Assembly: GCA_963681505.1 (NCBI GenBank)
Contig: OY811976.1
Coordinates: 6,735,822-6,799,821 of the forward strand
Source: Eunapius fragilis
Lineage: Eukaryota; Porifera; Demospongiae; Spongillida; Spongillidae
Length of the DNA stretch: 64,000 bases
Direction: 5' to 3'
Shown here: piece after piece, positions 1 to 64,000 of the stretch
How the letters are laid out: each line of letters opens with the position of its first letter
Position numbering within the stretch: the first letter of the stretch is position 1
Program-made: the position numbers and the translations under genes
The notes under the pieces: model-generated
The model's database searches: none
What the model saw: only the letters and a program-made list of their open reading frames with translations
Told to the model about the DNA's origin: nothing

Positions 1-650
1 ATCACTCCCACTATATGCCCTGTCCTGCTGCCTTATATATGCTTCGGGATCCTTGGGTAGCTCCATATTCCAGTAAGTTTGAATATGATGGTGCATGATA
101 CAAAAAAAAAATTGCAATATGTTCAAATGATGTTCAGTCTGTTTCATCCATTGTGTATAGGCATCAAGTCATATTTAGCAGGAGATACAGAAGAAAAACG
201 CAGGATCAGCCTTACCTTCTGTGTTGTGGGGTCTCATCCTGCGCAGATCTATCTTGTCAAGGATTATGAGGTAGAGCTCACTCTGTATTTGCACTTTTGC
301 ACTTTGTTCTGGATTTTTTGTATTTAATGTACAGTACACCACTGGATGCAGTACTCTGTTCAGCTTTCTGGAGTCCTTGTTGAATTTACAAAGCAAGCAG
401 ACGAGGCAACCATCAGTGGCTCTTTTCATGACATCATTGACTTAGCAGAACACTGAGATTGTTTGAATTGTACTCTGTGTTTGGTGTTGTTTTAAAAACA
501 ACTTTGTGCACTTTTTCTGGTTAAGTAATTACCGTTAATTTTGGAATGCACGCAGGCCTGACCAACGATTCTAGTGGGGTTATCACACCAAAACTCATGG
601 GTATAGTACACGGCAACTGGTGGGTGATCCCACTCCTTATAATAGGTGGG
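1..650. other. No recognisable gene
   Basis: I see no coding region with a recognisable domain, no RNA gene and no clear repeat here. The short open frames lack family motifs. The sequence leads into two short palindromes next to a truncated reverse transcriptase fragment. Confidence 0.5.
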
Positions 651-652
651 AC

Positions 653-712
653 TGGCACACCTAAATAGGTGTGCCAGGCGGGACAGCGCTAGCACACCAA
701 ATCTGGTGTGCT
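653..712. repeat. Two adjacent short palindromes
   Basis: Near 653-675 GGCACACCT is followed by AGGTGTGCC, and near 691-712 AGCACACCA is followed by TGGTGTGCT. Both share the core CACACC/GGTGTG. They lie just beyond the point where the neighbouring reverse transcriptase fragment stops matching, so they may be the end of a small foldback element. That reading is inference. Confidence 0.5.
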
Positions 713-1379
713 CAGCCCACCATGTTTTTTACAGTGCACTTTCCTGTTAGCCTTCTGAGAGTTTCCCCAACAGCAATAGGCCTGATATCAGGTGGGGAGC
801 CATCTTTAAACTTGTTCAAAGCAGTGAGGCTTCCACCCGCTAGAAATCTGGCAACTGACAATGGAGCTTTGCCTGCTGCAAGGAGGTTAACAATATCCCT
901 CAGGGATGAGCCAATGGAAATTGGAAGAGGGATTTGTGCAGCATCAATTAGATGTTGTACCCTGAGGCCTGAGGGGCCAGCAGCAGTGCCCTTTGGGAAG
1001 GAGAAAAGGAAGGGTAGGATGTTGAAATCAGGACCTAGAGAAAGTGGAGTGGAAGGAACATCTGGAGGAGTGGGTAGGGGAGAGCTAGGGTGTTTTGATT
1101 TGAGCAGCTCCCAGGTAGCATTATTGAGGGGAGCAAGCCCATCAGATAAAAGTATTCTGCAGGCTTTACCATGCAGACCGATCTTTGCTAAGGATATAAC
1201 CGAATCTAATAGGCTCTTAGAGTTCCTTTGCCTCTGCTGTGATGGGGCTTTAAGGACATTGGACCCTGCAAGGTTCCAAAGGGTACTAAACTCTTCCTTT
1301 GCCCAAAGATCACACAAGACTTTGATCGGGGTGTGCTTGAAGTGGCGGCCTTTACTTTTTAGGGAGGGAAGAACACACT
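712..1379 (-). pseudogene. Truncated non-LTR reverse transcriptase, copy A
   Basis: About 200 residues on the minus strand align without gaps to the middle of the longer reverse transcriptase at 13.97-16.49 kb. Shared blocks are LCDLW, GLRVQHLIDAA, LLAAGKAP, FLAGGSLTALNK and RPIAVGETLRRLTGKC. The fragment starts exactly where the (AAT)n tail of copy B ends (near 1380). It stops near 730, before the catalytic YxDD motif, so it cannot encode a working enzyme. It is a sister copy of B rather than part of it, because the shared segment differs at many positions. The N-terminal zinc fingers, catalytic palm and endonuclease are all missing. Confidence 0.85.
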
Positions 1380-1511
1380 TTATTATTATTATTGAAAAAA
1401 GCCAACTATTAATAGAAATTTACAAGAGAATACATGAATAGGAATACAATATTTAGGAGGAGAAATAACATGCATGAATTATTAATAACTCATGCTACAG
1501 TTCAATAAACT

Positions 1512-2661
1512 TTAAGATGGGAGCCACCTGGAAAGGATTGCTGTCGCATTTGCCCTCACCAGATGCAAGTTGAGCCTGCTATACAGGTCAGACAGCACAA
1601 CTGACTTTGCTTTGCCCGATATGATGGCAAGACGGGAGGCAAGCATCTTAAACGAGTCCATGGCTTCCTTTCCCCAAGCACCATAGGACTCCGTGACCAG
1701 AGGTACACAATACCAGCCCAAAGCATTGCATTTGGGGTCATTCTCATTATGCTTTCGCTCTTCAGTGGACAAGGCGGCTGCCCCAGCTGACAATCCCGCT
1801 ACTGAAACAATTGTAGGGTTTAGCGGTGATGTCACTGAAATATCAAAGGCAGCTGGTTTGCCAAGGGCCCAGTTGGGTAGCAAAATGTCTGCAGGGCGTG
1901 AATGGTCATGCTCAGATGTAAGATTGCTACCCATCTCCACCTTTACGCTCAAGTGGGCTCTACGGCAAGTCTCCGCCAACACATTGCGCAGCTGGTTGTG
2001 TCGGGTGACTACGTCTCCTCCTTTTTTGCACGTTGTAGCATGATGACCAAGGGGATCTAATGCACTGTTTGGGCATAGGGCACACAGAGAACCATTGGAG
2101 GTGTCCAAACCAAGCCACCACTTGACTGCTACCTGGAATACTGAGGGCTCAAGATGAAGGCCGAGACCTTCAGAAGGGACTACAGTTAGCCATGAAGCAG
2201 CATGTGGGGATGAGACAGACAACAAACGAGCCTTATCAGCAACAGAAGAAACGATCAGGATGTTATTGAACTGATGGATGTCAATCTTGCTCGAAAGTTG
2301 ATTTTGATGGACTGAAGATGAAACTAAACCATCAGACTGAATTGTATCAGAAGGAGATACAGACTCATTGAATGTCTGTATTGCATCAGAGAGATGGTGG
2401 TTGGAAGGGGAGCCATAGCCAGAAGAGCATAAAGATGCAATGAATGCTGCAGGTGAGTGTAGGGACAGAGACCTCATGCCCAACCCTCCTCTGCTTAGGC
2501 TTAGCTGGGCCTGCTGCCAGGCAACATCAGTTGTATCAACTGCAGTGCATAGTGAAAAACTTCTACGAACATCTTCATCAAAAAGCTGAAGAGAAGTCAT
2601 AGCAAGTGAAGGAGGAGTGGCACGGGCTAGATGTGCAAGCCGACAAAATCCCCCACACATA
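1512..2661 (-). CDS. C-terminal part of retrotransposon polyprotein: CCHC knuckle and restriction-like endonuclease
   Basis: This is the 3' half of copy B's ORF. It opens in mid-protein: CGGFCRLAHLAR is the thumb-like block that follows the RT palm in this family, so the methionine at 2660 is not a true start. A zinc knuckle C-x2-C-x9-H-x4-C (CALC...HATTC) lies about residue 195. It is followed by RPADILLPNWALGKPAAFDISV, which fits the P-D...D-x-x-V pattern of RLE nucleases that nick the target for target-primed reverse transcription. The final approximately 100 residues match copy C at 16.6-17.1 kb. No internal stops are present, so copy B was intact or nearly so when interrupted. Confidence 0.8.
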
Positions 2662-2724
2662 CCCGGGTGGAAAAAATCGCGATAATATCGCGATGTTTGG
2701 CGATTCTGGCGATTAATCGCCGGA
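2662..2724. repeat. Left terminal inverted repeat of the 11.3-kb element
   Basis: The outer 35 bases pair almost perfectly with the right end. Inside it are tandem GGCGATT-like motifs (ATCGCGAT, GGCGATT, GCGATTAATCGCC) that also recur, less regularly, at the right end. They could be transposase-binding subrepeats. Confidence 0.85.
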
Positions 2725-4530
2725 CAGAAATGACGTCAACGTGTCAAGTAAATTGTCATGACAACCATTCTATGACGGGATGATATCCAATTACATGTAT
2801 TTGGACGATAGAAAATTTGATATTTTATCTGTACGCCTATACTAGTAGGTCTGGATTTTAATATTCCCTTGTATTTAAGATGAATCTGGTCGGAGAGGAT
2901 CTAGCGGAACTCTAATTAACAGTTACTATTAAACGAGGGAGCGGACGTAGCCGTAGCACATATCGATGGTGACTCGGTTCGCGCTACATATGTAGACATT
3001 CTCTGTATGGAAGCGGTAAACGAGCAGGCATATTGTGTCGATCTATATGTTTATGTGATGTGTATCATGTGTCACAGCGAAGCCGCTATCTGCATATGGT
3101 GCTTCAACTATGTCTCTACTAGTAAGCAGGTGCTTGAGCTGGTGCGCTACCTGCATGAAAGCACTGTTTCAGTCTGGACAGACCGCGAAAGCAGAGGAAC
3201 AATCTGGATTTTAAAATGGGGTAAGGTAGTAATTTTGTCACGTTGGCTTTTACATACACACACGGAGTACATTTCCACATTCGCCTTACATTGGTCTGCT
3301 TACATTTACTACTTTACATTGTACGTTTTTACTTACATGTGGGACAATGGAAAGACACTGGGTTGGTGAGTTTGATCATTTACTTGTACATATATGCTGT
3401 CTACCAGGCAGTAGCCAAACCTGCTTGTCCAAAACAGCACCCTGAATGTGACTATTGGAAATCTCGAGATACATGTGTAACACTACAAAATGCATTCCCT
3501 GTCCTCATCTTCATTCTGTAAGTCACCCAAATGCCTATGCAGGGTACAGCGTTCATATATGTAGGTGGGGTGTACAATTCGGACATTATGCTGATGTGAT
3601 GTGCATTGTACGAAAGGGGATCCATTCTTATTATGATGCCTTGATACAGTTTCAATCCATGCCACCCTTCTCCCTGGTAACACTTTTGATCCATACCCAC
3701 CACCCTTTTCCACCCCTTTCCCTACACATACCAACCTTCTCCTCAACCCAACCCTTTCACACTACAAGGGAAGTGGGGGGGTATGGGCACAGATAAGTCA
3801 TTGAACATTTTCTGTACTATTCTGTTACTAATTTGTACTGCAGGAAAGTGGAGAGGTATGTGTGCTCCCTTACCATGATCCCCCTCTCAGTGGTTTGTAC
3901 TGGTCCAATGACCTCTGCTTATTTGGGGTTGCCTTTTGCTAATTAATAGATCAGCGTGTGTGTTTTTGTGGATCATAGCCCTTTGCGGGTGGACAAAAGG
4001 GTCCATAATTAGACAATACCGTAAACCAATTGCAGCTAGATGCGCCTTGTTCATTTTATACCCGTTGATCCCTCCCATTTAACTGGTGTATCATCATAGT
4101 AGAGACTATACTATTATGCGCACTCTTCATATCACACACAGCCAATTTATATATGGATATCGTAAGGGAGAGGGGTAGCTTACCAAGCACAGACAAATTC
4201 TCAAGACGGATGGTATGCCGCATCGTCAACTACGCACAATACCACAGATACAATACACAGAATTACACACAGTGCCCACCACAGAGACCAGCTCCAGAAA
4301 TGTTGCATAGTCTATGGAAGCCTTTTGGTAGCTACAGGGAAGATAAGGAGGGCAGTCTATCAATGTTCAGAGTTATCATAAGTATACACCCCCTGATGGC
4401 ACCCACTGTAGGTGCTTGTGACGTGTCTGAGCAGTACTTTGACAATGTAGTTATAAGTGTAAACAATGAGAACCAACAGACTGGCATTAGTGTAGTGCAG
4501 TAAATAGATTGAAGGGAAAGTGTAACATCA
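2725..4530. other. Interior of the 11.3-kb element, no gene recognised
   Basis: Several short open frames occur on both strands, but none shows a domain motif, a signal peptide or consistent splice sites. I see no function here. Confidence 0.4.
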
Positions 4531-4535
4531 AGGGC

Positions 4536-4815
4536 GAATGGGGGAGAAGGAGAGAGAGAGGGAGTTGTAGGAAGGAGAGGAGAGGGGGAGGAGAGTGAGG
4601 AGGAGTGGGGGAGGGAAGAAGAGGGGAGGAGAGGGAGAAAAGGGAGCAGGAGACGAAAAGGAGGAAGGGGGAGGGGTGGTGAGGGAGGGAGGAGGAGGGA
4701 GAGGGGAGGGAGAGGAGGGCAAGAGGGGAGAGAGGAGAGGGGAGGGAGGAGGGGAGGTAGGAGAGGGGAGAAAGGGGAGGGAGGAGAGGAAGACAAAAGA
4801 GGGAGGAAAGGGGAG
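4536..4815 (+). repeat. Purine-rich GGGAGGA tract
   Basis: About 280 bases of almost pure purine on the plus strand are built from irregular GGGAGG, GAGGA and GGGGAG words. Long proline/serine/leucine-only open frames on the opposite strand result from this composition and are not genes. Confidence 0.85.
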
Positions 4816-5514
4816 ATGGCTTCACATTTATACCCATTAAGTTAAAAATGTCCCTGGTCCATTTCCACTTAGAATGCTGAGAACAGGAACAGCTGGAGGG
4901 ACCAATGGATTGGGGTCACAATAGTAGTCACTTCCTTCCCATAACATATGGGTAGGCACACCTGAGAAGTGTAGGGTTGCCTAACACATGAGGCTGCTTG
5001 ATCTTATCTAAAACAATGGGCAAGGTGGATGGGTGCAGGCTTTGGTGTCCTAGGTTAACAGGGGGTAGAGTCTATCCTGACTATCCATGCCCACACAGAG
5101 AGCGTATCAATGTATCTACAAGAAGGTCCACACCCCACTCTTATTGTTCAAGAGCACAGGCTATCCATTGCACCCCGGATTGTGAAAGCAATTCCACCGC
5201 CAAACAAAGTTACAAAATCGTAGATATATACCTTTATATAAATATGACACGTCCATACCAGTACGTACATGTTAGAATATTAGTCCATGTGACATTGGCT
5301 ACTAATAGAACAAAGGTACTTCATTCCATGTATGGCCTTTAAATGGCGACAAGTTCAACTTGTTAACACGTAGTGCAAAGTTTATAATGTTGTCGGTTGT
5401 CAAGGGTGGTTGCTAAGGCATTACGCCACTTTTTCAATACTTCTATGGGTATGTCTTTTGTCCACAAAATGTATGGCCGCATAGGGCTGTGGGATGTGTG
5501 TGTATGTGTTATTT

Positions 5515-47291: not shown

Positions 47292-48962
47292 GGGGCGGAT
47301 TTAGGGGGGGGGGGGGGTCCGGACCCCCCTTTCCTATATGAACAATGGCGTAATGCATACGGCAATCTATGCAACCAAGGTAGTCTACCGTTGACCTTCA
47401 AGTACTTCAACGGTACCAGACAGCCCCGGATCCAGGATTTGGCTAAGGGGGGGGGGGCGGTTTTACTGGAGGGGCGGCACATTGACAATGAATGCATGCG
47501 AAGCCAGGGGCAGATACGAAAAGCGGGGGGGGGGGGGCTCTAAAAGCGACGATAATTAAATTCATTAATACTTTTACACTGACCCAAAATCTATTACACA
47601 GCTACATCTAAATGATGTGTACATGCGTATGCATAGTGACAGTATATGCAGAACACTTTATTTTTGGTTAGGCATAGCGCTATCCAAGGATATTTTTTTG
47701 TACTATGATATCATGAAATTTCTGCCTTTCTTGGCATCTGTTTAGGCTGATAAACCTCACTCTTATTGCTACAGCACGTAACTCGACAATCGCAAGCTGT
47801 CAAATCATTAGCAGCAAGGACGATTGGTGCAATGTCTTCTGGCTGCAGCTCCTCCGGACAGTTAGAAGTAGGCGAAGGTAATTCCGCTGAACAGTTAGCT
47901 GCTCAAATCAATGCTAGGTTGAGGTAAGTTCTCTGCAGAACAGTTAGCTGTTGGCAACGTGGGATCCAATTTTATCCCGCTTCAATGACCACGCTTCATC
48001 CAAATGAAACTGCCTTCGCTTCATTTTGTCATGCAGGTGATAGAATANNNNNNNNNNNNNNNNNNNNNNNNNNNNNNNNNNNNNNNNNNNNNNNNNNNNN
48101 NNNNNNNNNNNNNNNNNNNNNNNNNNNNNNNNNNNNNNNNNNNNNNNNNNNNNNNNNNNNNNNNNNNNNNNNNNNNNNNNNNNNNNNNNNNNNNNNNNNN
48201 NNNNNNNNNNNNNNNNNNNNNNNNNNNNNNNNNNNNNNNNNNNNNNNGCAATTGGTCCCAGAGGGCGGCATTTCGTATGAATGAGGGGGGGGGGGGGGGG
48301 GGGGGGCGGGGGGGCGGCCGCCCCCCCCGAGCCTATGCTGGATCCGGGGCTGGTGGCGGGTCCAAGAGGGGGGGGGGGGGGGGGGACCTCCAATTAGGGG
48401 GTATGAGCTGTGCTTGTGCGCATTAATTACGTCATTCACGAGAGACTAGCACGTGCGTACCCATGCGAAGCGAGCGGGAAACCATCAAACATACGCCAGA
48501 ATCATCTGGTCAGTATTCCCTAGTGATTTTCACAGACCTGCCAACTCTCACGCATTTCGCGGGAGACTCACGCAATTACAGCCACTCTCACGCTATGTTT
48601 ACAAGGCCGTGGGGGGGGGGGGGGGCTTGAGCCCTTCCCCCAAATTTTCTTCGAGAGAAAATAATTCTGCATTGTTAAGTTTTTTGCTAACAACAAATAA
48701 GGAAAATGTTAAAGCGGCAAAGACCCCAATGGGGAGCTTACAGCGCTACCCCAAACCTTCTTTCTGGGGGCAGAAGGGGGGCGCGCCCCCTCCCGCCCCA
48801 CCCAAGTCATTATAGCCCACCCCCCCCCCCCCCCCCCCCCACCTCCAAACTCTGAAAGTTGTCTACGGCCATGGTTTATCCGCATATTCAAAAGCTCCCG
48901 CCCCTCCCCTTTTGATTATTCATGTCGGACCCCCCCTTTCCAGAATTCCTGTATCCGCCCCT
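47292..48962. mobile_element. hAT-like insertion present only in unit 1, contains assembly gap
   Basis: GGGGCGGATTTAGG at the left and CCTGTATCCGCCCCT at the right form hAT-type inverted ends. GATCACCA at 47284-47291 and 48963-48970 is an 8-bp target duplication (TGATCACCAG is shared in full). Unit 2 has one copy of this target (GATCATCA near 54186) and no insert. Similar ends inside (47428 GGATCCAGGATTTGG; 48343 GGATCCGGGG) suggest further hAT pieces nested within. No intact transposase is visible, though part of the interior is unsequenced. Confidence 0.82.
48048..48247. other. Assembly gap, 200 N
   Basis: Exactly 200 unknown bases, likely a fixed-size placeholder. Poly(G) and poly(C) runs of 15-20 bases follow immediately. 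Confidence 0.99.
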
Positions 48963-49029
48963 GATCACCAGATTTCAGGGGTTGGGCTTTGTGCTCTTTG
49001 TGTGAGAAAGGGGAAAACATATTAGGATT

Positions 49030-51540
49030 CATCGTTCTGACAGCTCAACGTCGAAGATGATAAAGCACCTTAAAGACGAACACAAAATGCAATTAATGAC
49101 ATGCGCATGCAAGGTGCGTTAGTTGAAGTTAATAGCATATACATGTACATTCTCTCTGTAATCGATTTGATACAAACATGAAGTGATCTGCTAAATGAGC
49201 ACAAGCAAAAATCTACTGCTGATGATGCAGCAGGCGGTTGTGCCTCATCTCTTACTAGTACTACACACAGCTGTTTAACTACCAGGTATTTTGCTCTATC
49301 TATGTCCCATGAAGACCACAGTAAAGCATACGAGTTGTGAATTCGAGCACATGCTGCTGCTCCATGGATAAATGATGTACCGGAATACTGAGAGTCCATA
49401 GAATTTGTGTTCTGTGGTACAAATTTACTTCCCCACTGGACCAAAACAACTGAGTTACAGGATGAAGCTGCTGCAGTGCTTGAAACCAAGATACACTTAT
49501 TCACACAAAGCTGTTGATGTAGAGTAACAAAAATGCATAAACATATGTTTTATGAGCACAAATATTAAGCATTTTTGGTCATATATACAGGTTTTAGAAT
49601 CCTGGAATTTTTATTGTGCACTTATTCAAGGGCCTGGAAAATTTACCCATTGTAGGTATTTGTACGAACACATATAATGGCACATGGATAAGTTTATTCA
49701 TGCTGTCTAAATTCATGTAGGAAGAGCAATGAAGAGATCATTGAAAAATTCATACAGTATCCAATTTATTGACCCCTATATCTTTACTATCTTAAAATGT
49801 TAAAATGTTAAAGCATTAAGTATAAGATTTGAAATTAAATGTAAAAACCCTTGGGATATGTGTGCATCTGCGGTATAAACGTGGTACTATCATGCACCAG
49901 CTCACATAGTATTATAATTATTGTATTATATAACGATGTAAACACGTGAGTATTTTTGCAATCTCCTCTTACCTCCACTGTTCCCATTTTATCATGCTCA
50001 CATATGTTTATGTATCCCACTTTGGCTATAACCTTAACATGCAAACATATTGTTTTGCATGCAGATTAAAGCATCTGTGATGAGAAATTCTTCAATTTCA
50101 TTGACTGCTGATAGTGTCCTTACAGTGGAGAATCTTATGTTAGTGTCACAGGTCCTGGATTGATAGACAGATTTCCACACCATCTGGGAAAGTATCATGG
50201 AAATTAACCTCTGCTGTTCTAGCTGTTAAAGTAGACAACCAGTCCCACACTGCCGAGAACATAGCTGCATTGCTAAAAGAGTGTGCTAGTGTGAAGTATC
50301 AGATTGGGACAAAATTGGATAGCATTATGATCGGCAGAAAATGCAGTTAATTTCCGGGCTGCTGTGAATCAGCTTATTGAAGAAAGCATAATTGAAGAAG
50401 ACCCGTCTTGTGCTTGCCATACGTTGAACTTAGTAGTGAAAGAAAGGTACACTAGATCCAGATAAAGCAAAGGTTCCAGAATGCTTAACACGTGATTTAG
50501 TGCAATTGTTTGTGACATGACAAATAGCATCAGAAATAGCCTGCAAAGGTTAGAATGCAAAAGATCCCATCCGAAAAAGGGTTACTGAATCTTGATGGCA
50601 CTTCATCCGCTGTTCTCCATGATCCTGAGAGGTGTTCAGTAGCATTAAAAGTTATTAAAGACATTGGACCAGGTGGAAATCCACCTATTACATGTTGGAT
50701 CGGTGCATAGCATTAGAACCATTCATTAAAGACGTTTGCAGGGAATTCAATATGGTATGTTCACCAAGTGCTTCACAATGGATTTCTGCATTCAAACTGT
50801 GCCAGCTATTGAAATCACTTCGTGAGATGTCAGTTTTTTTTTTTTTTTGAAGGAGAAAAGTATCCAACTTTATGCAGTGTTTCCCGTTTAATAACTGTAT
50901 TGAACTCTGGCTTTGCAATTAAGTGCTGGTCCTCCTCTTTCCTGGAACCCTCAAGTTCAGAGATGGAATGAACTACCGTTAGAGGTGTTTGAATGCTACA
51001 TGTCGCTTAAATCTGGATTTCAATCACAATTTCATCCAACATTGCAACTGGTTACTGATGCAGCTCTATGACACAAATGTTTGTCATATTATCAGCTGCT
51101 CACAGGATGAAGGCAATTGATAAATTCAAAGAAGAGTTGCTTAGCATCGCTGGATAGAGTGATGTAATGTAGAAGAGTCTGATGATGCTGAAAAACAAGG
51201 CATTCCAAATCACAGCCAACAGAATTGTGCTCCGGCGATATCTTCTTGATGTCGGGACTGATGCCTCCACCAGCTACTAGTGCAACATAACAGCTAAAGA
51301 TGCCATTGAAGATGAGTTTCGTCAGACATTACCCACAAATTGGCGTGAAAATGATGGTGGAGCAACAATGGATCAAATTTTCCAAATATGGCAAAGATGG
51401 CAATGAAGTATCTTGCGATATACCAGCATCCAGCGCTCCTTCCGAACGTGTGTTTTCACAGCTGAAGCTATTAATGAACCGTAAGATGGATTCAAAAAGG
51501 CTGGACAGCTTTCTGCCGTTACGGTGCATGCAATAAACAT
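49030..51540 (+). pseudogene. Dead hAT transposase, unit 1
   Basis: Fragments in several frames: BED-finger end (STSKMIKHLKDEHKM, near 49040), middle region (SHTAENIAALLKECASVKY, near 50245) and the C-terminal dimerisation block (IPASSAPSERVFSQLKLLMN, near 51423). Numerous stops and frame changes lie between. The SAPSERVFS motif is diagnostic of hAT transposases. The unit 2 copy shares most of the same lesions, so it died before the segmental duplication. Confidence 0.8.
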
Positions 51541-52055
51541 TTCACTATACTTAATGCTTGCTATTCTATGCTGCGTTCCATCATTTACATGTATGTAGCT
51601 TTCTTGATTCAGCCAGTGATCATAAATACCTACGATTGTTCTTTTCTGCTCCATCACTGACGCTTAATAGTTACGCAAACATGGCACATGCATATCATAC
51701 ATGATTTAAAAAGAAGTCTGCGTTCAGTAGGACCGCCAGCCGTGACCGTCAACACGATTTTCACGACCTTCGACGGTCAAATATTGTCCGTTACCGTGCC
51801 CGAGGCTTGTAGCGACCTGCCCGTTACTGGATCGGGCGAGACCCTACGCGGCTTGATATTGACCGGAACAGTGATTTATAGCTGTAAAATGGCTGCATGC
51901 CCATGCCATGCCATGCGCATGCACAATCTGCGCCGTGTGCCAATGTATAAATATTAATCCAATGCGAGACCGGCAAAATTAAAGATTTAGAGTGTCATAT
52001 ATGTATAAATTTAATTCAAAATAAAGCCGGCTCAGATCTCGATTTCAGTGAGTCT

Positions 52056-52646
52056 TCAATACCCCGTCTTCCTGCAGACGGGAAGGGAATAGGCCCAAAC
52101 TGCACGCCCATCTTTGTTAACACATTTGTTCAACGATGAACCGTACAGCACGTATCCGTTCTGGCAGGAGTAGTGTATGATGCTGTTTATCTCGCAAACG
52201 TCGTAGTTTTCCTCTATTTCTCCGTACTGAGGCGGAACCGGCTTGGAGCAATAAATCGGGGGCTGCGTCGCCTGTGGGTGCTGCGTCACCTTTGCGGGCT
52301 TGCTTCGGGACTTATCGTCGTGTTTACCATGGGGAGACAGGACACGTTCAATACCTTTTATAATATGAGGGAAGAGACCATGTCCAGCACCATCCTTCGT
52401 ATTGTGTCGTGTGCCCGGTTCTTTAGTATGCGGGGGGCGATTATCATATTTATTGCCATCTTTAGTATTGCTGGAGTCTTTAGTACGGGCTGGGTAGTGG
52501 GCTCTTTCACCGCCATCTTTAGTACGGTGTACGTGGTTATCGTCATGACGATTTCCCTTCGTGCCGTGAAGGAGGTTGGACAGAAATCCAATGTTCGTAG
52601 CGGCAGCAACCACCAAGACTGCAGCGAAGACAAGAAGCAGCTTCAT
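52056..52646 (-). CDS. Secreted sushi (CCP) domain protein, unit 1
   Basis: 196 codons. The start at 52646 is preferred over an upstream in-frame ATG because it opens a signal peptide (MKLLLVFAAVLVVAAATN) and lies downstream of a TATA box. After cleavage comes a basic, hydrophilic linker of about 100 residues with KDG/KD repeats (HRTKDGGERAHYPARTKDSS). Then a short V-T-Q-H-P-Q stretch leads to one C-terminal sushi module: YCSKPVPPQYGEI...IIHYSCQNGYVLYG...KCVNKDGRAVWAYSLPVC. The module has the four framework cysteines plus one extra Cys and the Trp. A secreted adhesive or immune-type role is plausible; function is not known. The gene appears to have a single exon. Confidence 0.8.
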   Translation of the reverse strand: MKLLLVFAAVLVVAAATNIGFLSNLLHGTKGNRHDDNHVHRTKDGGERAHYPARTKDSSNTKDGNKYDNRPPHTKEPGTRHNTKDGAGHGLFPHIIKGIERVLSPHGKHDDKSRSKPAKVTQHPQATQPPIYCSKPVPPQYGEIEENYDVCEINSIIHYSCQNGYVLYGSSLNKCVNKDGRAVWAYSLPVCRKTGY

Positions 52647-52714
52647 TCCGGATGACAGTTGCACGTACCACGTTTCCTGTGAGCTCTGATGAAGTACGCT
52701 TGGCCAACGGTCGG

Positions 52715-52721
52715 TTATATA
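52715..52721 (-). promoter_or_regulatory. TATA box of sushi gene, unit 1
   Basis: TATATAA on the minus strand, about 70 bases upstream of the start codon. It is conserved in unit 2 at 58089-58095, with similar spacing. Confidence 0.6.
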
Positions 52722-53509
52722 CAGCATCTGTGCACGAATGATTCTTTGAATACCATTTCGCCGCTGCACACAAAAGTTCATTGTTTTATTCATTTGATTG
52801 TATCAGTAGCCAGTTATAATTTTCTTTGTTGCAATACTCGTACTCCCTCTGGCTATACACAGACGAATACCATCACCGAGCCCCTTCACAAAAATTCTCA
52901 TCATGCAGGTGAGATCCTGGTTCCATTGTGTTCGACAATGCCACATCAATGGCGCGGCATTTGCAGTGATTCTGCTTGTTGTTCCACACAGTAGGCGTGC
53001 TAAAGTGCAGGTCTTTCAAGTACGCGCTGCTATCAGCACTGAGAAAAGAAAAAAAAAGTTATATTCTTAATTTGGTGTTGCTGCATGCATGCATAAATCC
53101 GTTTTCAATTAAATGGCTTGGTTTTTGTTATAAGAATAAAAGGTTAAATGCTTGCATACACCATGCAACGCATTCATTCACATAGTGAGTTAATACGTAG
53201 TGCACGAAGATGACCGTTTGCCTAACTCCCTATATGAAATGTACTGATGCGTGGTACTGTACCTCAACCCAATACTACAAACGATTTTTACTATATTCGC
53301 CTGTATACAACGTCCGCGTGTGTCCCATTATTCAACGACCGAACGACATGCTTGTATTTCTGCATATTGTATGAATGCTGGTGCTTCACATCATGCGTGT
53401 GGAGGTAATCCACCGCATATCTTGTGTGATGGCTGAGATCAGCGTGACGTTGATCTGGATCCAGTCTATAAACTGATCCATCTATCATTGCACTGATGGC
53501 ATACGTGTA

Positions 53510-54150: not shown

Positions 54151-54249
54151 ATTTCATAATTCTAAATTAATATGGACAAGTTGCCTTGATCATCAGATTT
54201 CAGGGGTTGGGCTTTGTGCTCTTTGTGTGAGGAAGGGGGGAAACTTATT

Positions 54250-56780
54250 TGGATTCATCGTTCTGACAGCTCAACGTCGAAGATGATAAAGCACCTTAAA
54301 GACGAACACAAAATGTATGTATTGCAATTGATGACATGTGCATACAAGGTGCGTTAATTGAAGTTAATAGCATATACATGTGCATTCTCTCTGTAATCGA
54401 TTTGATACAAACATGAAGTGATCTGCTAAATGAGCACAAGCAAAAAGCTACTGCTGATGATGCAGGCGGTTGTGCCTCATCTCTTACTATAGTACTACAC
54501 GCAGCTGCTTAGCTACCAGGTATTTTGCTCTATCTATGTCCCATGAAGACCACAGTAAAGCATACGAGTTGATGATTCGAGCACATGCTGTTGCTCCATG
54601 GATAAATGATGTACCGGAATACTGAGAGTCCATAGAATTTGTGTTCCGTGCGGGTACAAATTTACTTCCCCACTGGACCAAAACAACTGAATTACAGGAT
54701 GAAGCTGCTGCAATGCTTGAAACCATAATACACTTATTCATACAAAGCTGTTGATGTAGAGTAACAAAAATGCATAAACATATGTTTTATGAGCACACAT
54801 ATTAAGCATTTTGGTCATATATACAGGTTTTAGAATCCTGGAATTTTTAGGGGAATTTTATTGTGTACTTATTCAAGGGCCTGCAAAATTTACCCATTGT
54901 AGGTATTTGTACGAACACATATAATGGCACATGGATAAGTTTATTCATGCTGTCTAATTTCATGGAGGAAGAGCAATGAAGAGATCATTGAAAAATTCAT
55001 ACAGTATCCAATTTATTGACCCCTATATCTTTACTATCTTAAAATGTTAAAATGTTAAAGCATTAAGTATAAGATTTGAAATTAAATGTAAAAACCCTTG
55101 GGATATGTGTGCATCTGCGGTATAAACGTGGTACTATCATGCACCAGCTCACATAGTAATATAATTATTGTATTATATAATGATGTAAACACGTGAGTAT
55201 TTTTGCAATCTCCTCTTACCTCCACTGTTTCCATTTTATCATGCTCACATATGTTTATGTATCCCACTTTGGCTATAACCTTAACATGCAAACATATTGT
55301 TATGCATGCAGATTAAAGCATCTGTGATGAGAAATTCTTCAATTTCATTGACTGCTGATAGTGCCCTTACAGTGGAGAATCTTATGTTGGTGTCACAGGA
55401 CCTGGATTGATAGACAGATTTCCACACCATCTGGGAAAGTATCATGGAAATTAACCTCTGCTGTTCTAGCTGTTAAAGTTGACAACCAGTCCCACACTGC
55501 CGAGAACACAGCTGCATTGCTAAAAGAGTGTGCTAGTGTGAAGTATTAAATTGGACAGCATTATGATCAACAGACAATGCAGTTAATTTCCGGGCTACTG
55601 TGAATCAGCTTATTGAAGAAAGCATAATTGAAGAAGACCCGTCTTGTGCTTGCCATACGTTGAACTTAGTAGTGAAACGTACACTAGATCCAGATAAAGC
55701 AAAGGTTCCAGAATGCTTAACACGTGATTTAGTGCAATTGTTTGTGACATGACAAATAGCATCAGAAATAGCCTGCAGAGGTTAGAATGCAAAAGATCCC
55801 ATCCGAAAAAGGGTTACTGAATCTTGACGGCACTTCATCCGCTGTTCTCCATGATCCTGAGAGGTGTTCAGTAGCATTAAAAGTTATTAAAGACATTGGA
55901 CCAGGTGGAAATCCACCTATTACATGTTGGATCGGTGCATAGCTTTAGAACCATTCATTAAAGACGTTTGCAGAGAATTCAATATGGTATGTTCACCAAG
56001 TGCTTCACAATGGATTTCTGCATTCAAACTGTGCCAGCTATTGAAATCACTTCGTGAGATGTCAGTTTTTTTTTTTTTTTTTTTTTAAGGAGAAAAAGTA
56101 CCCAACTTTATGCAGTGTTTCCCGTTTAATAACTGTATTGAACACTGGCTTTGCAATTAAGTGCTGGTCCTCCTCTTTCCTGGAACCCTCAAGTTCAGAG
56201 ATGGGATGAACTACCGTTAGAGGTGTTTGAATGCTACATGTCGCTTAAATCTGGATTTCAATCACGATTTCATCCAACATTGCAACTGGTTACTGATGCA
56301 GCTCCATGACACAAATGTTTATCATGTTATCAGCTGCTCACAGGATGAAGGCAATTGATAAATTCAAAGAATTAGAGTTGCTTAGCATCGCTGGATAGAG
56401 TGATGTAATGTAGAAGAGTCTGATGATGCTGAAAAACAAGGCATTCCAAATCACAGCCAACAGAATTGTGCTCCGGCGATATCTTCTTTGATTTCGGGAC
56501 TGATGCCTCCACCAGCTACTAGTGCAACATAGCAGCTAAAGATGCCATTGAAGATGAGTTTCGTCAGACATTACCCACAAATTGGCGTGAAAATGATGGT
56601 GGAGCAACAATGAATCAAATTTTCCAAATGTGGCAAAGATGACAATGAAGTATCTTGCGATATACCAGCATCCAGCGCTCCTTCCGAACGTGTGTTTTCA
56701 CAGCTGAAGCTATTAATGGACCATAAGATGGACTCAAAAAGGCTGGACAGCTTTCTGCCGTTACGGTGCATGCAATAAAC
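54250..56780 (+). pseudogene. Dead hAT transposase, unit 2
   Basis: Counterpart of 49030-51540, with the same BED-like start (near 54270), SHTAENTAALLKECASVKY (near 55490) and IPASSAPSERVFSQLKLLM (near 56665). Small differences include a 20-base poly(T) run at 56067-56086 versus about 17 in unit 1. Confidence 0.8.
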
Positions 56781-57285
56781 ATTTCACTATACTTAATGCT
56801 TGCTATTCTATGCTGCGTTCCATCATTTACATGTATGTAGCTTTCTTGATTCAGCCAGTGATCATAAATACCCACGATTGTTCTTTTCTGTTCCATCACT
56901 GACGCTTAATAGTTACGCAACCATGGCACATGCATATCATGCATGATTTTAAAAGAAGCCAGCGTGCAGTAGGACCGCCAGCCGTGGACCGACGACCTTC
57001 GACGGTCAAATATTGACCGTTACCGTGCCCGATAAGGCTTGAAGCGACCTGCCCGTTACTGGATCGGGCGAGACCCTTCGCGGCTTAATATTGACTGGAA
57101 CAGTGATTTATAGCTATACAATAGCTGCATGCCCATGCCATACCATGCGCAAGCGCAAATGTATCTGCGCCGTGTGCCAATTAATGTACAAAAATTAATC
57201 CAATGCGAGACTGACAAAATTAAAGATTTAGAGTGTCATATGCATATAAAATAAAGCCGGCTCAGATCTCAATCTCAATGAGTCT

Positions 57286-58020
57286 TCAATACCCCCCCTT
57301 CCTGCAGACGGGAAGGGAATAGGTCCAAACTGCACGCCCATCTTTGTTAACACATTCGTTCAACGATGAACCGTACAGCACGTATCCGTTCTGGCAGGAG
57401 TAGTGTATGATGCTATTTATCTCGCAAACGTCGTAGCTTTCCTTTATTTCTCCGAACTGAGGCGGAACCGGCTTGGAACAATAAATCGGGGACTGCGTCA
57501 CCTGTGGGCGCTGCGTCACCTGTGGGCGGTGCGTCACCTGTGGGCGCTGCGTCACATGTGGGCGGTGCGTCACCTGTGGGCGCTGCATCACCTGTGGGCG
57601 GTGCGTCACCTGTGGGCGCTGCGTCACCTGTGGGCGGTGCGTCACCTGTGGGCGCTGCGTCACCTGTGCGGGCTTGCTTCGGGACTTATCGTCGTGTTTA
57701 CCATGGGGAGACAGGACACGTTCAATACCTTTTATAATATGAGGGAAGAGACCATGTCCAGCACCATCCTTCGTATTGTGTCGTGTGCCCGGTTCTTTAA
57801 TATGCGGGGGGCGATTATCATATTTATTGCCATCTTTAGTATTGCTGGAGTCTTTAGTACGGGCTGGATAGTGGGCTCTTTCACCGCCATCTTTAGTACG
57901 GGGTACGTGGTCATCGTTATGACGATTTCCCTTCGTGCCGTGAAGGAGGTTGGGCAGAAATCCAATGTTCGTAGCGGCAGCAACCACCAAGACTGCAGCG
58001 AAGACAAGAAGCAGCTTCAT
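57286..58020 (-). CDS. Secreted sushi (CCP) domain protein with expanded repeat, unit 2
   Basis: 244 codons from the signal-peptide start at 58020 (MKLLLVFAAVLVVAAATNIG). It is nearly identical to the unit 1 protein through signal peptide, KDG-rich linker and C-terminal sushi module (YCSKPVPPQFGEI...YSCQNGYVLYG...AVWTYSLPVC). The difference is between linker and sushi module, where a VTQRPQVTHRPQ unit (36 bp, two 6-residue halves) is repeated to about ten hexapeptides. The unit 1 gene has only one or two. No stop interrupts it. The repeat may form an extended Pro/Gln stalk. Single exon, TATA box upstream. Confidence 0.82.
   Translation of the reverse strand: MKLLLVFAAVLVVAAATNIGFLPNLLHGTKGNRHNDDHVPRTKDGGERAHYPARTKDSSNTKDGNKYDNRPPHIKEPGTRHNTKDGAGHGLFPHIIKGIERVLSPHGKHDDKSRSKPAQVTQRPQVTHRPQVTQRPQVTHRPQVMQRPQVTHRPHVTQRPQVTHRPQVTQRPQVTQSPIYCSKPVPPQFGEIKESYDVCEINSIIHYSCQNGYVLYGSSLNECVNKDGRAVWTYSLPVCRKGGY
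57487..57668 (-). repeat. In-frame 18/36-bp coding minisatellite
   Basis: GTGACGCAGCGCCCACAG and GTGACGCACCGCCCACAG alternate on the minus strand, encoding VTQRPQ and VTHRPQ. It keeps frame because 18 is divisible by three. Single variants (ATGCAG, CACATG) mark individual units. Confidence 0.92.
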
Positions 58021-58088
58021 TCCGGATGACAGTTGCACGTACCACGTTTCCTGTGAGCTCTGATGAAGTACGCTTGACCAACGGCCGG

Positions 58089-58095
58089 TTATATA
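58089..58095 (-). promoter_or_regulatory. TATA box of sushi gene, unit 2
   Basis: TATATAA on the minus strand, about 70 bases upstream of the signal-peptide ATG; conserved with unit 1. Confidence 0.6.
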
Positions 58096-58924
58096 CAGAA
58101 AAAAGTGAGCATCTGTGCACGAATGATTCTTTAATTACCATTTCGCCGCTGCACACAAAAGTTCATTATTTTATTCATTTCATTAGTTGTAATTTTCTTT
58201 GTTGCAATACTCGTGTATTGTGTTCGAGTCCCTCTGGCTACACAGACGACTGCCATCACCGTGCTGTGTGGAACAACAAGCAGAATCACTGCAAATGTCG
58301 CGCCATTGAATCAGACGTAGCATTGTCGGATACAATTGAGCCAAGGGCTGGCATGCAGCAAAAACGTTCTTGCCGTGCTAAAGTTTAGTAATGTGCAAGT
58401 CTTTCAAGCACCATCTATCAGCACAACACGTACACTCGCAAGAGTATGAGGAAAGAAAAAAAAAGTTATATTCTTAATTTTTTGCTGTTGCTTAAATTTC
58501 CAACTGCATGGTTTGGTTTGTTATATTAATAAAAGGTTAATTTCGCGTAGTGAGTTAATTGGAGGCAAGGATCGACGTAGTGAAGATGACCGTTTGCCTA
58601 ACTCCCTCTATAAAATGCATGCATGCGTGGTACTTTTTCGTATATTAATCGGTCGTCCACTTTACCTCAACCCAATGAATGCTACACGCGATTTTTACTA
58701 TATACGCAGGCCTGTATACCGCGCCCGCGTGTGTCCCGTATTTCAAGGACCGAACGACATGCTTGCATTTCTGCATATTGTATGAATACTGGTGCTTCAT
58801 CATGCATGTGGAGGTAGTCCACCGCATATCTTGTGTGATGGCTGAGGTCAGCGTGACGTGGATCTGGATCTATAAACTGATCCATCTATCATTGCACTGG
58901 TGGCATATACGTGGAACTAACCTT

Positions 58925-59715
58925 TGCTTGTTGTTCTCAATTTGTCGCATTGTTATTTGGGCACACAAGCTTGATGATCTCTGTATATCATTATGCAAAT
59001 CATTAAGTGCACGCAACCTTTAATGCATCTATGTTTAGTTTAGGTTAGGGCAGCGTTTAAGTTAAGGTAAGACCGAACGGCCGCATAATGAAAATTAATG
59101 AACCACAATTGTTTTTACAGACTTATTCATTTGCGATTACTATCCTTGTACGGTAGCTGTTTCAGCATCTAATGCCTCGGCTATTTTATTGAACGACGGA
59201 ATTAGCAATTGTGCGAATGAGATTAGTAATCACTATAATTACTTCTAAATAATTCCGAATGAGGAGGCGTTACAATTTCCACCATATAGAGAAAGGTGCC
59301 TCAAATGTTTGCATGAACATATCCTCAGGAAAGGGATCTTGCAATCGACGTCCATAGATATGAAATTACTTCCTCCGCGACAATCGAGAATGCCTTTAGT
59401 ACACTTCGTCCACCTGGACAATTGCAATAATGATATGGTTTCCACTCCGCCGAGTTTATGTTCAAGAAAGAAAATTAAGCTCACGATCAATTCCAATGCT
59501 TATGCGCTTGTCATTGTAACATCCCCAATAGGGGCCGATGTCGGGACTTGTATGGGATTTGACATCGCTAATTGGATTGTCGTTTGAGCATTTGACTCCG
59601 GAAGAGGCGGGTGCAAAAAAGAAAATGGCTGCGTAGGCACATATATCACCTGCGTGTGAGCGTCCGGAGAGAGACACAGAGAAAGGGCGTGACAAGAGAG
59701 GGAGGCACTGTGTTA
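58925..59715. other. No supported gene
   Basis: A plus-strand open frame at 59309-59587 (92 codons) has ordinary composition but no recognisable domain or splice context. The segment 59510-59575 (CATTGTAAC, GGGGCCGATGTCGGGA) resembles parts of the foldback that follows, so this may be repeat-derived. Confidence 0.35.
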
Positions 59716-59722
59716 ATACTGC

Positions 59723-60088
59723 ATGGCAATTGAAATCCGTGCAATCTATTCTTCCCTATAGGCTACTGCCCGCGTTTAAACATGAAGCAGTTTATATAGG
59801 GCCGAATTTATATTGTAATGCGCCTGTCATTGTAATAGGGTACCCCCCCCCCCCCCCCCCCCCCCCCCCCCTTTATTAATCCCTAACCGTGCATGGGGCA
59901 TTTGATTTAATAAAGGTCAAATCCCGACATTGGCCCCAATGGGGGGGAGGGGGGGGGTACCCTATTACAATGACAGGCGCATTACAATATAAATTCGGCC
60001 CTATATAAACTGCTTCATGTTTAAACGCGGGCAGTACGTTGCCTAAGGGAAGAATAGATTGCACGGATTTCAATTGCCATGCAGTATA
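59723..60088. repeat. Large foldback with poly(C)/poly(G) inner arms
   Basis: The left arm (59723-59872) reads ATGGCAATTGAAATCCGTGC ... CATGAAGCAGTTTATATAGG ... CAATAGGG-like text and TACCC plus about 28 C. The right arm (59941-60088) is its reverse complement, starting with GGGGGGGAGGGGGGGGG. The loop is about 68 bases. A few single differences separate arms of about 150 bases. It looks like a recent inverted duplication or foldback transposon. Confidence 0.88.
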
Positions 60089-60089
60089 A

Positions 60090-61100
60090 ACATTCCTAAT
60101 AAGCCACAGTGCAATTCTCCCTGCAATTAAACTAGTAAAAAGTAGGCCCTTTTTTGGTGCCTGTGGGCAGGGGACATTTAAGTACGGGGAGCAGTAGGAC
60201 CGGATTCTATTGCCAGGAGTAGCATTACTCGCAACATAAGCCACGACTCAATTCTGCCTGCATTGAACTGAATAAATCCTTTGTTTGTTTTCTTTAGCAA
60301 GTTGGGCCTTTATTAACATAAACAGGGCGGGGGTGGTCGACCGCTATCGTTTAAGTTTAGGCAGTATGTGTAGAGTAGTATCAATTGCCATTAATTAGCA
60401 TTGCTATAGAAATATAATCCACGGCTCAATTCTGCCTGCATTGAATAAAGCCTTTGTTTGTTTTCGTTGGGCCTTAACATAAACAGGGCGGGGGTAGCCG
60501 ACCGCTACCGTTTAAGTTTAGGCAGTATGTAGAATAGTATCAATTGTCATTAACATACTAGAAATACGGCTCAATTCTGCCTGCATTGAACTGAATAAAG
60601 CCTTCGTTAATTGTGCCTTAACATGGCGGGTAGCCGACCGCTACCGTTTAAGTTTAGGCAGTATGTAGAGTAGTATCAATTGCCATAGCAATATAAGCCA
60701 CGGCTCTATTCTGCCTTCATTTTTGATATAAGGCCTTCGTTTGTTTCAATTTATAAGTTCGGCCTTAACATAAACAGGGCGGAGGTGGGGGTCGAATATA
60801 GGTTGGATTTCAATTGGATAACCATGCACTCCTAATAACAAAAGCCACAGCACAATTTTTGCCTGCATTAAAAATATATATATATTTGCAAGTATATATA
60901 CTGCATACGGATGACTAGGTTGAATTTCAATTCCGTTGATATAACAAGCAGCACTCCTAATAACAAAAACCACAGCGCAATTTTGCCTGCATTAAAATCT
61001 TTTTTGTTTGTTTTTTTTTCTTGTCTATACTGCCGTAACATAAACAGGGCGAGGTTGGCCAACCGCTACCGTTTAAGTTTAGGCATTATGTATACGTAGA
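60090..61100 (+). repeat. Degenerate tandem repeat, about 150 bp per unit
   Basis: Six to seven diverged units contain CACGGCTCAATTCTGCCTGC, ACATAAACAGGGCGGGGGT, CCGACCGCTACCGTTTAAGT and TTAGGCAGTATGTAGA. Examples of the TTTAAGTTTAGGCA part are near 60349, 60506, 60644 and 61072. The foldback on its left shares the CAATTGCCAT and GCAGTAT words, so it may derive from this repeat. Confidence 0.8.
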
Positions 61101-61104
61101 ACAG

Positions 61105-61730
61105 TAGTACGGTCATAACGAGGTCAATTAAGCTTTCACGATCGACCCGGCTGTTACGAAGCCGGTTCCCTCCATGTCAGAGTACATGTATCATGCTACT
61201 GGTGTTTTTGTATGCTTCGAGCAATCTACAAGTGTATTTCAGCTGCTTAAATATTCATGCGTGGTGCGTGTTACAAATTACATTGCGGTTTGATTAGCGC
61301 GGGTCTCTTGGGCGCGCGCATTTGCCTTAACTCATGGCTGTTTGAGGCTGGACGTAGAGTGTTACGGTATATAATGGCGGTTAGCCTCATTATCGCTATA
61401 TGCAATGTTTAACGGCATGGCTTGCTTGAAGCTTACACCTGGTTCTACTGGTGCATTAGTACCAGCAATTATTCCTCTAACACACACATCTGAACAATTT
61501 ATATTACGCGAACCAATTAAAACACTGGCCGTTTTTCATAAGCATACGCCGTTACGTCATCTCTAGCTTGTGCGGAAGCGCATTGCATCAAGCTGCCAAT
61601 TTTCTTACTGATAGGGCATAGAGGCAATGTTAACACTTTAGGTGAAAGGTTTATGCCATTAACTAAGTGCGGCCGGCTGTTTTCGGCCTAAGCAGTCTAC
61701 TTGTTTTCTATGAATATGGTGGTAATCCAT
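61105..61730. other. Upstream region of the RAG1-like gene, nothing identified
   Basis: No coding motif, and no clear terminal repeat of RAG/Transib type (a CACTATG- or CACAGTG-like heptamer in a convincing inverted pair) was found here. Confidence 0.4.
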
Positions 61731-61735
61731 TCAAC

Positions 61736-64000
61736 CTATACAACACCGCATCATCCACCAAGTTCATCTGCACTGCAGAGTGTGCGTAAAACGCATGTAT
61801 GACAGAAGTGGTAACAAAAAGAATACCACATACCAGTGTGAGGCATATACTCAGGCCTTGCAGAAGGTGTTTGATATGGCATTTCATACTGAGGAGGATG
61901 CAATGGTGTACCCATATAGTTTCTGTAGCTCCTGCAAGCGTTCCCTTCAAAAGGCAATGGGTGCAGCTGCACAGGGGGTACCATATAGGTGCTGTGTGAC
62001 TGCATTTCGGTGGCTACCCCATAGAAGTGGACCTTGCATGGTGAGCTGTTTACACCCCAGTATGATGGCATGTGTATTAATGTCTTTAAATCCACACATA
62101 AGGTGTGTAAACACTTCATGTCCACTCAGCAAGTGGGAAGGCCACCCAAAGTCATTCATCCAGCTAAAGAAGGCCGTGCTAAAAAGCTTTTAAAGTACAT
62201 TGATACTATTTCACCACTACCTCTAAATCTCTTGGCAACCTTACTAATCACTGATTTGTAGCAGATGACAATTTCAGTTCTACAGCATCTGAAGTGTCTC
62301 CTCTGTGCCTTGAGGTGGTCAACCAGCCCTTGGAGCTGCCATGCAAAGCACGTGTGTGTGCCAAATGCATCAGGCAATGGATAGTGGTATCAGCAGACAT
62401 ACAGTGTCCCTGTTGTAATGGTACAGCACCATTGCTTCTTAACCCTGCACCCACCTTGGTATTGAACATCTTGGGCGATTTATTGGTTCATTGTGCAGCC
62501 TGTTCCAGGGACATCAAAGCTAGAAGTTTTGATGATCACCAGTGTACACCATCTCCAACTGAAGAGGAGATGGTAGTTGCTGCAGGTGTCCTGAGACGCA
62601 TGTCATCAACAAGCCCTGAGAACCCTGTTTTGCAGTGTCCAACATGAGGAATGGTAAGTGCACACAGCAAATAACAGTAGGCCCAATACATGCCACATAG
62701 GCACATTCACAGTCAAAATTAATGTAATCACTAATGACTTTCTTACAGCCAGTCACATTCATGAGGGTTCCAGCCACCCACAATGTAACCAACTCAAGGA
62801 CACTTAAGCAAAGGTGTCAAGAGATTAGCCATGTGCATGACATCGTCAGTGCAGGGGAGGGCATCCACCTTATACTTGAGAATAAAATTAAGTGGCTGAG
62901 TGATGAAGAAAAGCAGCATGTGTTATTAGTGGAACCGGGAATTGCTATTCACATCAAAGTGAGTGCAGAGCAAGGCTTGGCAATCAAGGCTGGCCTAGCA
63001 ATTCCTTGGCACAAGTTGCGGCACTTCCAAAGGTCAGCATCATATATGCACATGCCACAGCATTATAAAAATAACTCTATTGTCACTTACTTATAAATTT
63101 AGATGGCTTAAGACTTCGGGAATCTCCATTGGTAGTGAAGAAAGGATGCGGCAAATCTCGAGAGAGATGATCAGGGGCAACCTCAAAGGAGCAATTGCTC
63201 CTTTTTCATTTTCACTGAAGTCTGGGGGAGAGGAGATGCAAGGAGCCGCCCTGGTCTATGTTCCAAATCTCATGCAAAAAGTATTCCAACTGCTGAATGA
63301 GAATGCCAAGTAATGAATAAATTACATAAGATGCACATAGTTATATATTAATGCATATGTGTCTACATAGAGCTGGCAGGCTCACATGGCATGGCGTAAT
63401 CCCCAGTGATGAAGTGTGGATAAAGCTGGGAGGAGAAAAGGGTGGAGGGACATTCAAGATGTGTTTTCAAATTGTTAATGTTCCCTCACCCAATTCTCCC
63501 CAAAATACTTGCATCTTCTACTGTTTTGAGGCTGATGACAATGTCACAAACCAACATGTAGCATTAGATTGCTATCAAGACCAGGTGGCAGAACTGCAAA
63601 CGATAAAATGGAGGTTGGTGTTTTGTTAAATAAATTTTTACTAACAAACAAGTGATTTTAATTAATATAGGCAATATAAAATCAAGTTGTGTCTTTGCGG
63701 TGACTATACGAATTTTTCAGCACAATGTACGGCCTTTCTGGAGCTTGTGGTGCATCAATACTAGATGTTAATAATACCCATTATGACTAAACTTTGTACA
63801 CAGGGTGCTATCCTTGCATGTGTTGCCATATCCACAAAGATAAGATGTAGATTCCCATCACCATCAGAGGATCATTTGAGGTGCGCACATTGGAGACCAT
63901 GATTCAGGATAACCTAAACTACATGGAGGGATTAGGATCCACAATTGCATCTCAAAGCCCATTTTTAGCATTCCTATATGCCAGGTTAGATATCAGTCAT
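61736..64000 (+). pseudogene. RAG1-like gene (N-terminal zinc region, RING-like, core start), partial and disabled
   Basis: Exons read as about 61736-62040, 62103-62194, 62278-62653, 62749-63032, 63103-63309, 63371-63613, 63671-63749 and 63804-63984. Phases match at all seven GT-AG introns (54-95 bp). The N-terminal zinc region resembles RAG1: CRVC, then YPYSFCSSCKRSLQK, then FRWLPHR..PC and VC across the first intron. A RING-like block follows (PLCLEVVNQPLELPC.ARVCAKC...QCPCC), then a C-x2-C...H-x-C finger after LNILGDLLVHCAAC. Later exons give RVPATHN, LAIPWHKLRHFQRW, WHGVIPSDEVWIKLGGEKGG, YGLSGACG and PCMCCHIHK. Disabling changes are TGA at 62645-62647, a 2-base frame change near 63705 and TAG at 63848-63850. 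RING departures are the first Cys as Ser and the usual His as Ala. The gene runs off the window; the last donor is at 63985. Confidence 0.75.

Follow-up and report, generated by a model that had tools for sequence, protein, structure and literature searches.

A decayed DNA transposon, very probably of the Chapaev superfamily, with a RAG1-like transposase gene in the sponge Eunapius fragilis

RAG1 is the protein that builds antibody genes. It has been placed with EnSpm, Mirage, Chapaev and Transib in one group sharing C(2)C and H(3-4)H motifs (PMC12730594), and DUF1280 (PF06918), a family of putative Chapaev transposases, has been placed with RAG1 in clade II (PMC3985635). Chapaev elements are described as having 3-4 bp target duplications, CAC...GTG ends and C(2)C, LH and H(4)H motifs (PMC4079192). 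A RAG1-type head, a RING domain and a DDE core in one Chapaev protein were described by Kapitonov and Koonin in 2015, in an account that gives canonical Transib no domain besides the core (PMC4411706). Here we analyze 64,000 nucleotides of the Eunapius fragilis genome (the window; contig OY811976.1, C6:6735822-6799821, in an assembly of 219 Mb and 24 contigs), at the end of which an earlier note had proposed a RAG1-like gene belonging to the group of RAG-type transposons. We find, with high confidence, that a DNA transposon of the Chapaev superfamily, autonomous and of the cut-and-paste type, inserted at this locus and has since decayed. Its likeness to RAG1 is real and beyond chance, and the kind of element is one already described.

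The borders of the element were set by comparison with three sister copies (L011, L012 and L013). The feature had been thought to start at 61736; the transposon end lies at 61333. On the right, homology with the three copies stops at a common 3′ point. Because this point and the sequences of both ends are shared, the full element could be delimited as 4232 bp on the forward strand, from window position 61333 to C6:6801385 (positions 2155-6386 of L009, the locus that reaches past the window end at 64000), with its left part, 61333..64000, inside the window. It begins with the terminal inverted repeat CATGGCTGTTTGAGGC (61333..61348, forward strand; family form CACGGCTGTTTG[A/C]GGC), and CACGGCTGTTTGCGGC is obtained when its 3′ end is read inwards; at about 16 bp, and with mismatches, the inverted repeat is short. 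The 5′ ends of the copies read CA[C/T]GGCTGTTTG[A/C]GGC, and the 3′ terminus GGGCCGCAAACAGC[C/T]GTG is common to the window copy, L011, L012 and L013. The third base of the 5′ repeat is T in the window copy and C in the other copies seen, giving termini CAT...GTG as against CAC...GTG in the family.

Target site duplications were counted in eight copies with both ends read. These were picked by an end pattern that allowed CAC or CAT and required GTG, and both the ends and the duplications therefore depend on that choice. GTG stood at the end of all eight copies and CAC at the start of seven, the window copy being the one with CAT. The window copy is flanked by AACT, at 61329..61332 on the left and C6:6801386-6801389 on the right (5′ flank CCTTAACT, 3′ flank AACTTAAA); among lengths of 2-8 bp only 4 matched, and the chance of a 4-bp match is 1 in 256 per copy. 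Duplications of 4 bp were present in seven of the eight (besides AACT, these were GGGC, TGAA, AAAG, GCTA, TGCC and TATT), and one copy, L013, had the 5-bp duplication GGAAA. The 5′ ends of L055 and L057 were excluded from this count, their 3′ ends being absent from the fetched DNA. In a related copy on C2 (L020), a 23-bp inverted repeat was seen, with no target duplication readable beside it. The earlier note had suggested looking for inverted repeats with a 5-bp duplication; inverted repeats are present, and the duplication is 4 bp in the window copy. An internal CGGCTGTTTTCGGCC at window position 61672 (L009 2494), before exon 1, resembles the terminal repeat and occurs also in L011, L012 and L013; it is possibly a subterminal transposase-binding site.

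The core of the encoded protein also pointed to Chapaev. Eight pieces, including four from the window, were scanned against Pfam, and the core exon of the window copy matched DUF1280 with 50.2 bits (cut-off 25 bits); the same family was above cut-off in all seven relatives scanned. Motifs corresponding to D, D, E, C(2)C, LH and H(4)H were found by eye in L020. We assign the element to Chapaev rather than to the Transib/RAG-like elements with 5-bp duplications because of this DUF1280 core, the 4-bp duplication and the CAC...GTG ends of the family. The locus resembles the described Chapaev elements with a Chapa domain and RING in all of these features, including the three motifs, as well as in its RAG1-type zinc head followed by a RING. 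It differs from them in its sponge host, in the one copy out of eight that fits 5 bp, and in that the window copy is dead.

The predicted model has a core fold of the RAG1/Transib type (its residues 1-150, mostly with pLDDT below 60, were kept out of interpretation). By sequence, a core profile built from eight sequences gave no matches at E<=10 against PDB chains, RAG1 and Transib included, and PF12940 (RAG1) was not listed for any of the seven relatives scanned at E<=10, in a search whose HMMER filters drop most weak matches. Kinship of the core with RAG1 is therefore argued from the predicted fold and the motifs found by eye, since the core-only sequence match gave nothing. The start of a RAG1-type core, as proposed earlier, held as far as the predicted fold is concerned, whereas the family of this core is that of Chapaev. 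Compared with this gene, vertebrate RAG1 has a core too distant for a sequence match and is a host recombinase, whereas the window gene is part of a transposon copy with no RAG2 in the element.

We also considered whether the locus is a RAG-like (RAGL/Transib) transposon proper, i.e., a direct relative of the ancestor from which RAG1-RAG2 came, expected to make 5-bp duplications and to carry a RAG2-like gene in linkage. The RAG1-type head detected by profile, the predicted core fold and the 5-bp duplication of L013 agree with such an origin, which we nevertheless regard as very improbable and have dropped on the grounds of duplication length, core family and lack of room for RAG2. Seven of eight copies have 4 bp, the core is DUF1280 with PF12940 unlisted, and its profile finds no PDB match by sequence. 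In addition, the matched exons of one gene span element positions 442-3814, leaving only 441 and at most 418 bp outside them within the 4232-bp element; the RAG2-like gene that the earlier note wished to find has no place there. By its duplications and the absence of a RAG2-like gene from the window element the locus is set apart from Transib, RAGL and ProtoRAG, and by its head and RING from canonical Transib, which has the core only; its membership in the RAG-type group was not borne out.

The N-terminal half, by contrast with the core, was recognizable as RAG1-type by sequence profile. The profile of the relatives matched the RAG1 N-terminal chain 21wb_A with an E value of 2.5e-6, and RAG1_imp_bd (cut-off 23.3 bits) was above cut-off in three of the seven relatives (P0004, 31.6; P0077, 30.9; P0035, 25.5 bits). 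It was below cut-off in P0072 (21.1 bits) and P0002 (16.2 bits) and not listed for P0001 and P0036, both of which are without the N-terminal part. This supports a RAG1-type assignment of the N-terminal half, as far as profile comparison can tell. It is, however, conceivable that an unrelated RING/zinc-finger gene lies next to an unrelated transposon fragment and resembles RAG1 by chance juxtaposition; RING domains are common, and TRAF6 and TRIM chains match the RING too. We give this explanation even less weight, as RAG1 scored above the other RING proteins in the profile search, and the N-terminal zinc region was covered by RAG1 chains only, among the matches listed (60 of 174). A better match to an unrelated RING family, which would have spoken against the earlier note, was thus not obtained. 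Moreover, head, RING and DUF1280 core occur together in P0072 (1028 aa) and P0077 (984 aa), two predicted proteins that come from other sources, and L020 splices to a single open frame.

Exon borders of the window copy were placed by comparison with L020, used as the reference protein, and the three sister copies, with GT/AG sites located by eye. Splicing of the 11 exons of L020 gives an open reading frame of 934 aa, and all ten introns are GT...AG. Seven exons, all on the forward strand, lie within the window; exons 8-11 follow past 64000 in L009. Exon 1 (~61774..62040) encodes the N-terminal zinc region of the Chapa/RAG1 zinc dimerisation type (CRVC...FCSSC...WLPH...PCM); in the three sister copies the protein starts with MDYHH.QVQLHCRVC. 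On its own, the exon 1 piece had only a sub-threshold Pfam match. Exon 2 (~62103..62653), identified by exon comparison, its Pfam match and splice sites by eye, contains the last Cys of this first zinc region (VC), a linker, the RING (zf-C3HC4, 24.7 bits; cut-off 21 bits) and a second zinc finger, LLVHCAAC...H.C (LNILGDLLVHCAAC...H.C).

Exon 3 (~62749..63032) is a linker region placed by exon comparison, and its piece had no Pfam match. In the relatives, the profile of this stretch aligned with the RAG1 region after GGRP (zebrafish RAG1, 3jbw), in one local match together with the RING and hence not independent of it. Exon 4 (~63103..63309; exon comparison and splice sites by eye) begins with WLKTSGISIG... 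and precedes the first catalytic strand. Exon 5 (~63371..63613), supported by DUF1280 and exon comparison, encodes the part of the DDE core in which the first catalytic position lies (GGEKGGG...PNS). Exon 6 (~63671..63749; exon comparison) carries CGDY...YGLSGA with the second catalytic Asp (CGD) at 63702-63704, and exon 7 (~63804..63984; translation and exon comparison) the C(2)C zinc motif YPCMCC. The motifs named in the earlier note (CRVC, FCSSC, W-x-PH, PCMVC, RING, H.C and the core motifs) were all present where it had placed them, as seen in the translation of 61601-64000. That N-terminal and core parts are joined in one spliced gene was also correct; such an arrangement is not new to this lineage, as Chapaev subgroups of this kind were described in 2015 (PMC4411706).

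The window copy is heavily decayed. Exon 1 is without an ATG at the site of the start codon of the sister copies, the first Cys of the RING is replaced by Ser (62297-62299), and exon 2 has an internal frame break and a TGA at 62645-62647. The first catalytic Asp is changed to Glu (codon 63435-63437); GGEKGG, which had been taken for a conserved motif, is a mutated form of GGDKGG, with D in all three sister copies and L020. A frameshift follows between 63704 and 63710 in exon 6, after CGD, and a TAG at 63848-63850 in exon 7. Past the window, exons 8, 9 and 10 have more stops, and a deletion in exon 11 removes the catalytic Glu and the second His of H(4)H. The remaining catalytic residues expected past 64000 are present as motifs in L020, whereas the window copy lacks the Glu. 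With the ATG of the sister copies absent, stops and a frameshift in the frame and catalytic residues gone, the window copy is dead and cannot encode an active transposase. Among the sister copies, no stop was found in the 11 matched exon pieces of L012 and two in L011; L013, in which exons 3 and 4 are missing and exons 1 and 2 truncated, has no stop in its nine exon pieces. Domestication of a Chapaev transposase into a host gene that is no longer mobile, which coding exons with introns and some constraint between copies (dN/dS 0.34-0.52) might suggest, is the least credible explanation, given the target duplication, both ends, the stops, frameshift and lost catalytic residues of the window copy and its place as one among many copies.

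These copies form a large repeat family. For the core exon, at least 150 of 280 candidates in the genome were scored matches, some of them adjacent fragments, and the 3′ end of the element had 41 matches. Among 26 of these 41 that were compared over the 1450 bp to the 3′ end, median pairwise identity was 93% and the closest pair was 99.7% identical; the three lowest pairs (40-44%) all involved L033. The dN/dS range given above comes from four close copies (281-852 codons per pair) and indicates mild coding constraint, dead copies being part of the sample. Three of the 26 copies, L026, L034 and L041, gave no transposase match; these loci hold only ~1.5 kb of the 5′ side, and because of this short reach we only infer that they are non-autonomous. 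Beyond this genome, a search with the L020 protein found 44 proteins, of which one came from JGI and the other 43 bore "Em" identifiers or Ephydatia muelleri names, and a profile search found 102, of which 97 had such names or identifiers; both scored only the ~8000 candidates with most shared words. The other five were P0072 and P0096 (ENA), P0077 (lgn), P0089 (Diadema setosum) and P0097 (Patiria miniata).

In better-preserved relatives, one gene encodes a transposase of about 930-1030 residues, with parts in the order N-terminal zinc region, RING, zinc finger, linker and RAG1-fold DDE core with C(2)C, LH and H(4)H. Sequence and model show domain order, ends, duplication, catalytic motifs in relatives, decay and predicted fold; beyond these, its action may be modeled on RAG1 and Transib. 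Transposase dimers would bind the CAC...GTG ends via head and linker, the zinc-braced DDE site would excise the element, possibly by a RAG-like hairpin route, and insertion would use target cuts staggered by 4 bp. A probable role of the RING, as an E3, is ubiquitination of the transposase itself or of a factor of the host. For bench study, the family offers a transposase that combines the RAG1 fold with a RING.

The element also bears on the origin of RAG1. N-RAG-TP of Aplysia was reportedly found by Panchin and Moroz in 2008. It is described as nothing more than the N-terminal-like part, for which recombination with Transib has been proposed (PMC8355894). Like the present element, it is a transposable element with RAG1 N-terminal-like sequence; it differs, by description only, in that here a DDE core continues in one gene with the head. 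The origin of the non-core part of RAG1 is disputed between a fusion of Transib and N-RAG-TP, proposed in 2021 (PMC8355894), and a unit inherited with losses, proposed in 2015 (PMC4411706); the main text of PMC7204232 has no mention of N-RAG, Panchin, NTD, sponge/Porifera or Chapaev. We tentatively raise the possibility, which we hold to be somewhat less probable than its opposite, that the whole RAG1 plan (zinc dimerisation head, RING, zinc finger, GGRP-type linker and DDE core) was one transposase before the split between sponges and other animals and was inherited as a unit via Chapaev-like elements. If so, RAG1 would not have arisen when a Transib core fused late to an N-RAG-TP head, and N-RAG-TP would itself represent a Chapaev that had been truncated. 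This order of parts was proposed as ancestral already in 2015 (PMC4411706); what would be new is the sponge member and the predicted RAG1-type core fold. Chapaev in sponges is not claimed here as unreported, and seven published papers contain both words. With its many Chapaev copies, one or more of them open over the whole spliced length, this genome offers material for testing the question by building head and core phylogenies on one set of proteins.

Several other features were observed in and around the window. What is left of another transposase from the family of this element lies at 4277-5220; it matches L020 residues 3-36 (the N-terminal exon) and 862-930 (the last exon), with the middle missing, and its element ends were not found. 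In the relatives L014 and L019 (C12), the core exon runs into a long minisatellite, open in many frames (one of 622 aa in L014), which was possibly amplified inside an intron. A large direct duplication with 94% identity over 3.4 kb (window positions 48959-52291 and 54184-57521; 52258-52799 and 57632-58184) carries hAT-like coding remnants, with a Pfam match under threshold, and a reverse-strand open reading frame of 248 and 282 aa with a Sushi domain at its end that misses the Pfam cut-off by 0.1 bit; a similar frame is present at L009 7576-7956. At 59711-60092, a near-perfect inverted repeat surrounds poly-C, with arms of 96 and 47 nt that are 99% and 98% complementary. Directly upstream of the transposon, 60222-61111 is an interspersed array of diverged units with GTTTAAGTTTAGGCAGTATG and ACATAAACAGGGCGG blocks at irregular spacing from ~125 bp up, and downstream of the element, L009 8000-8521 contains a retrotransposon RNase H fragment (PF17919).
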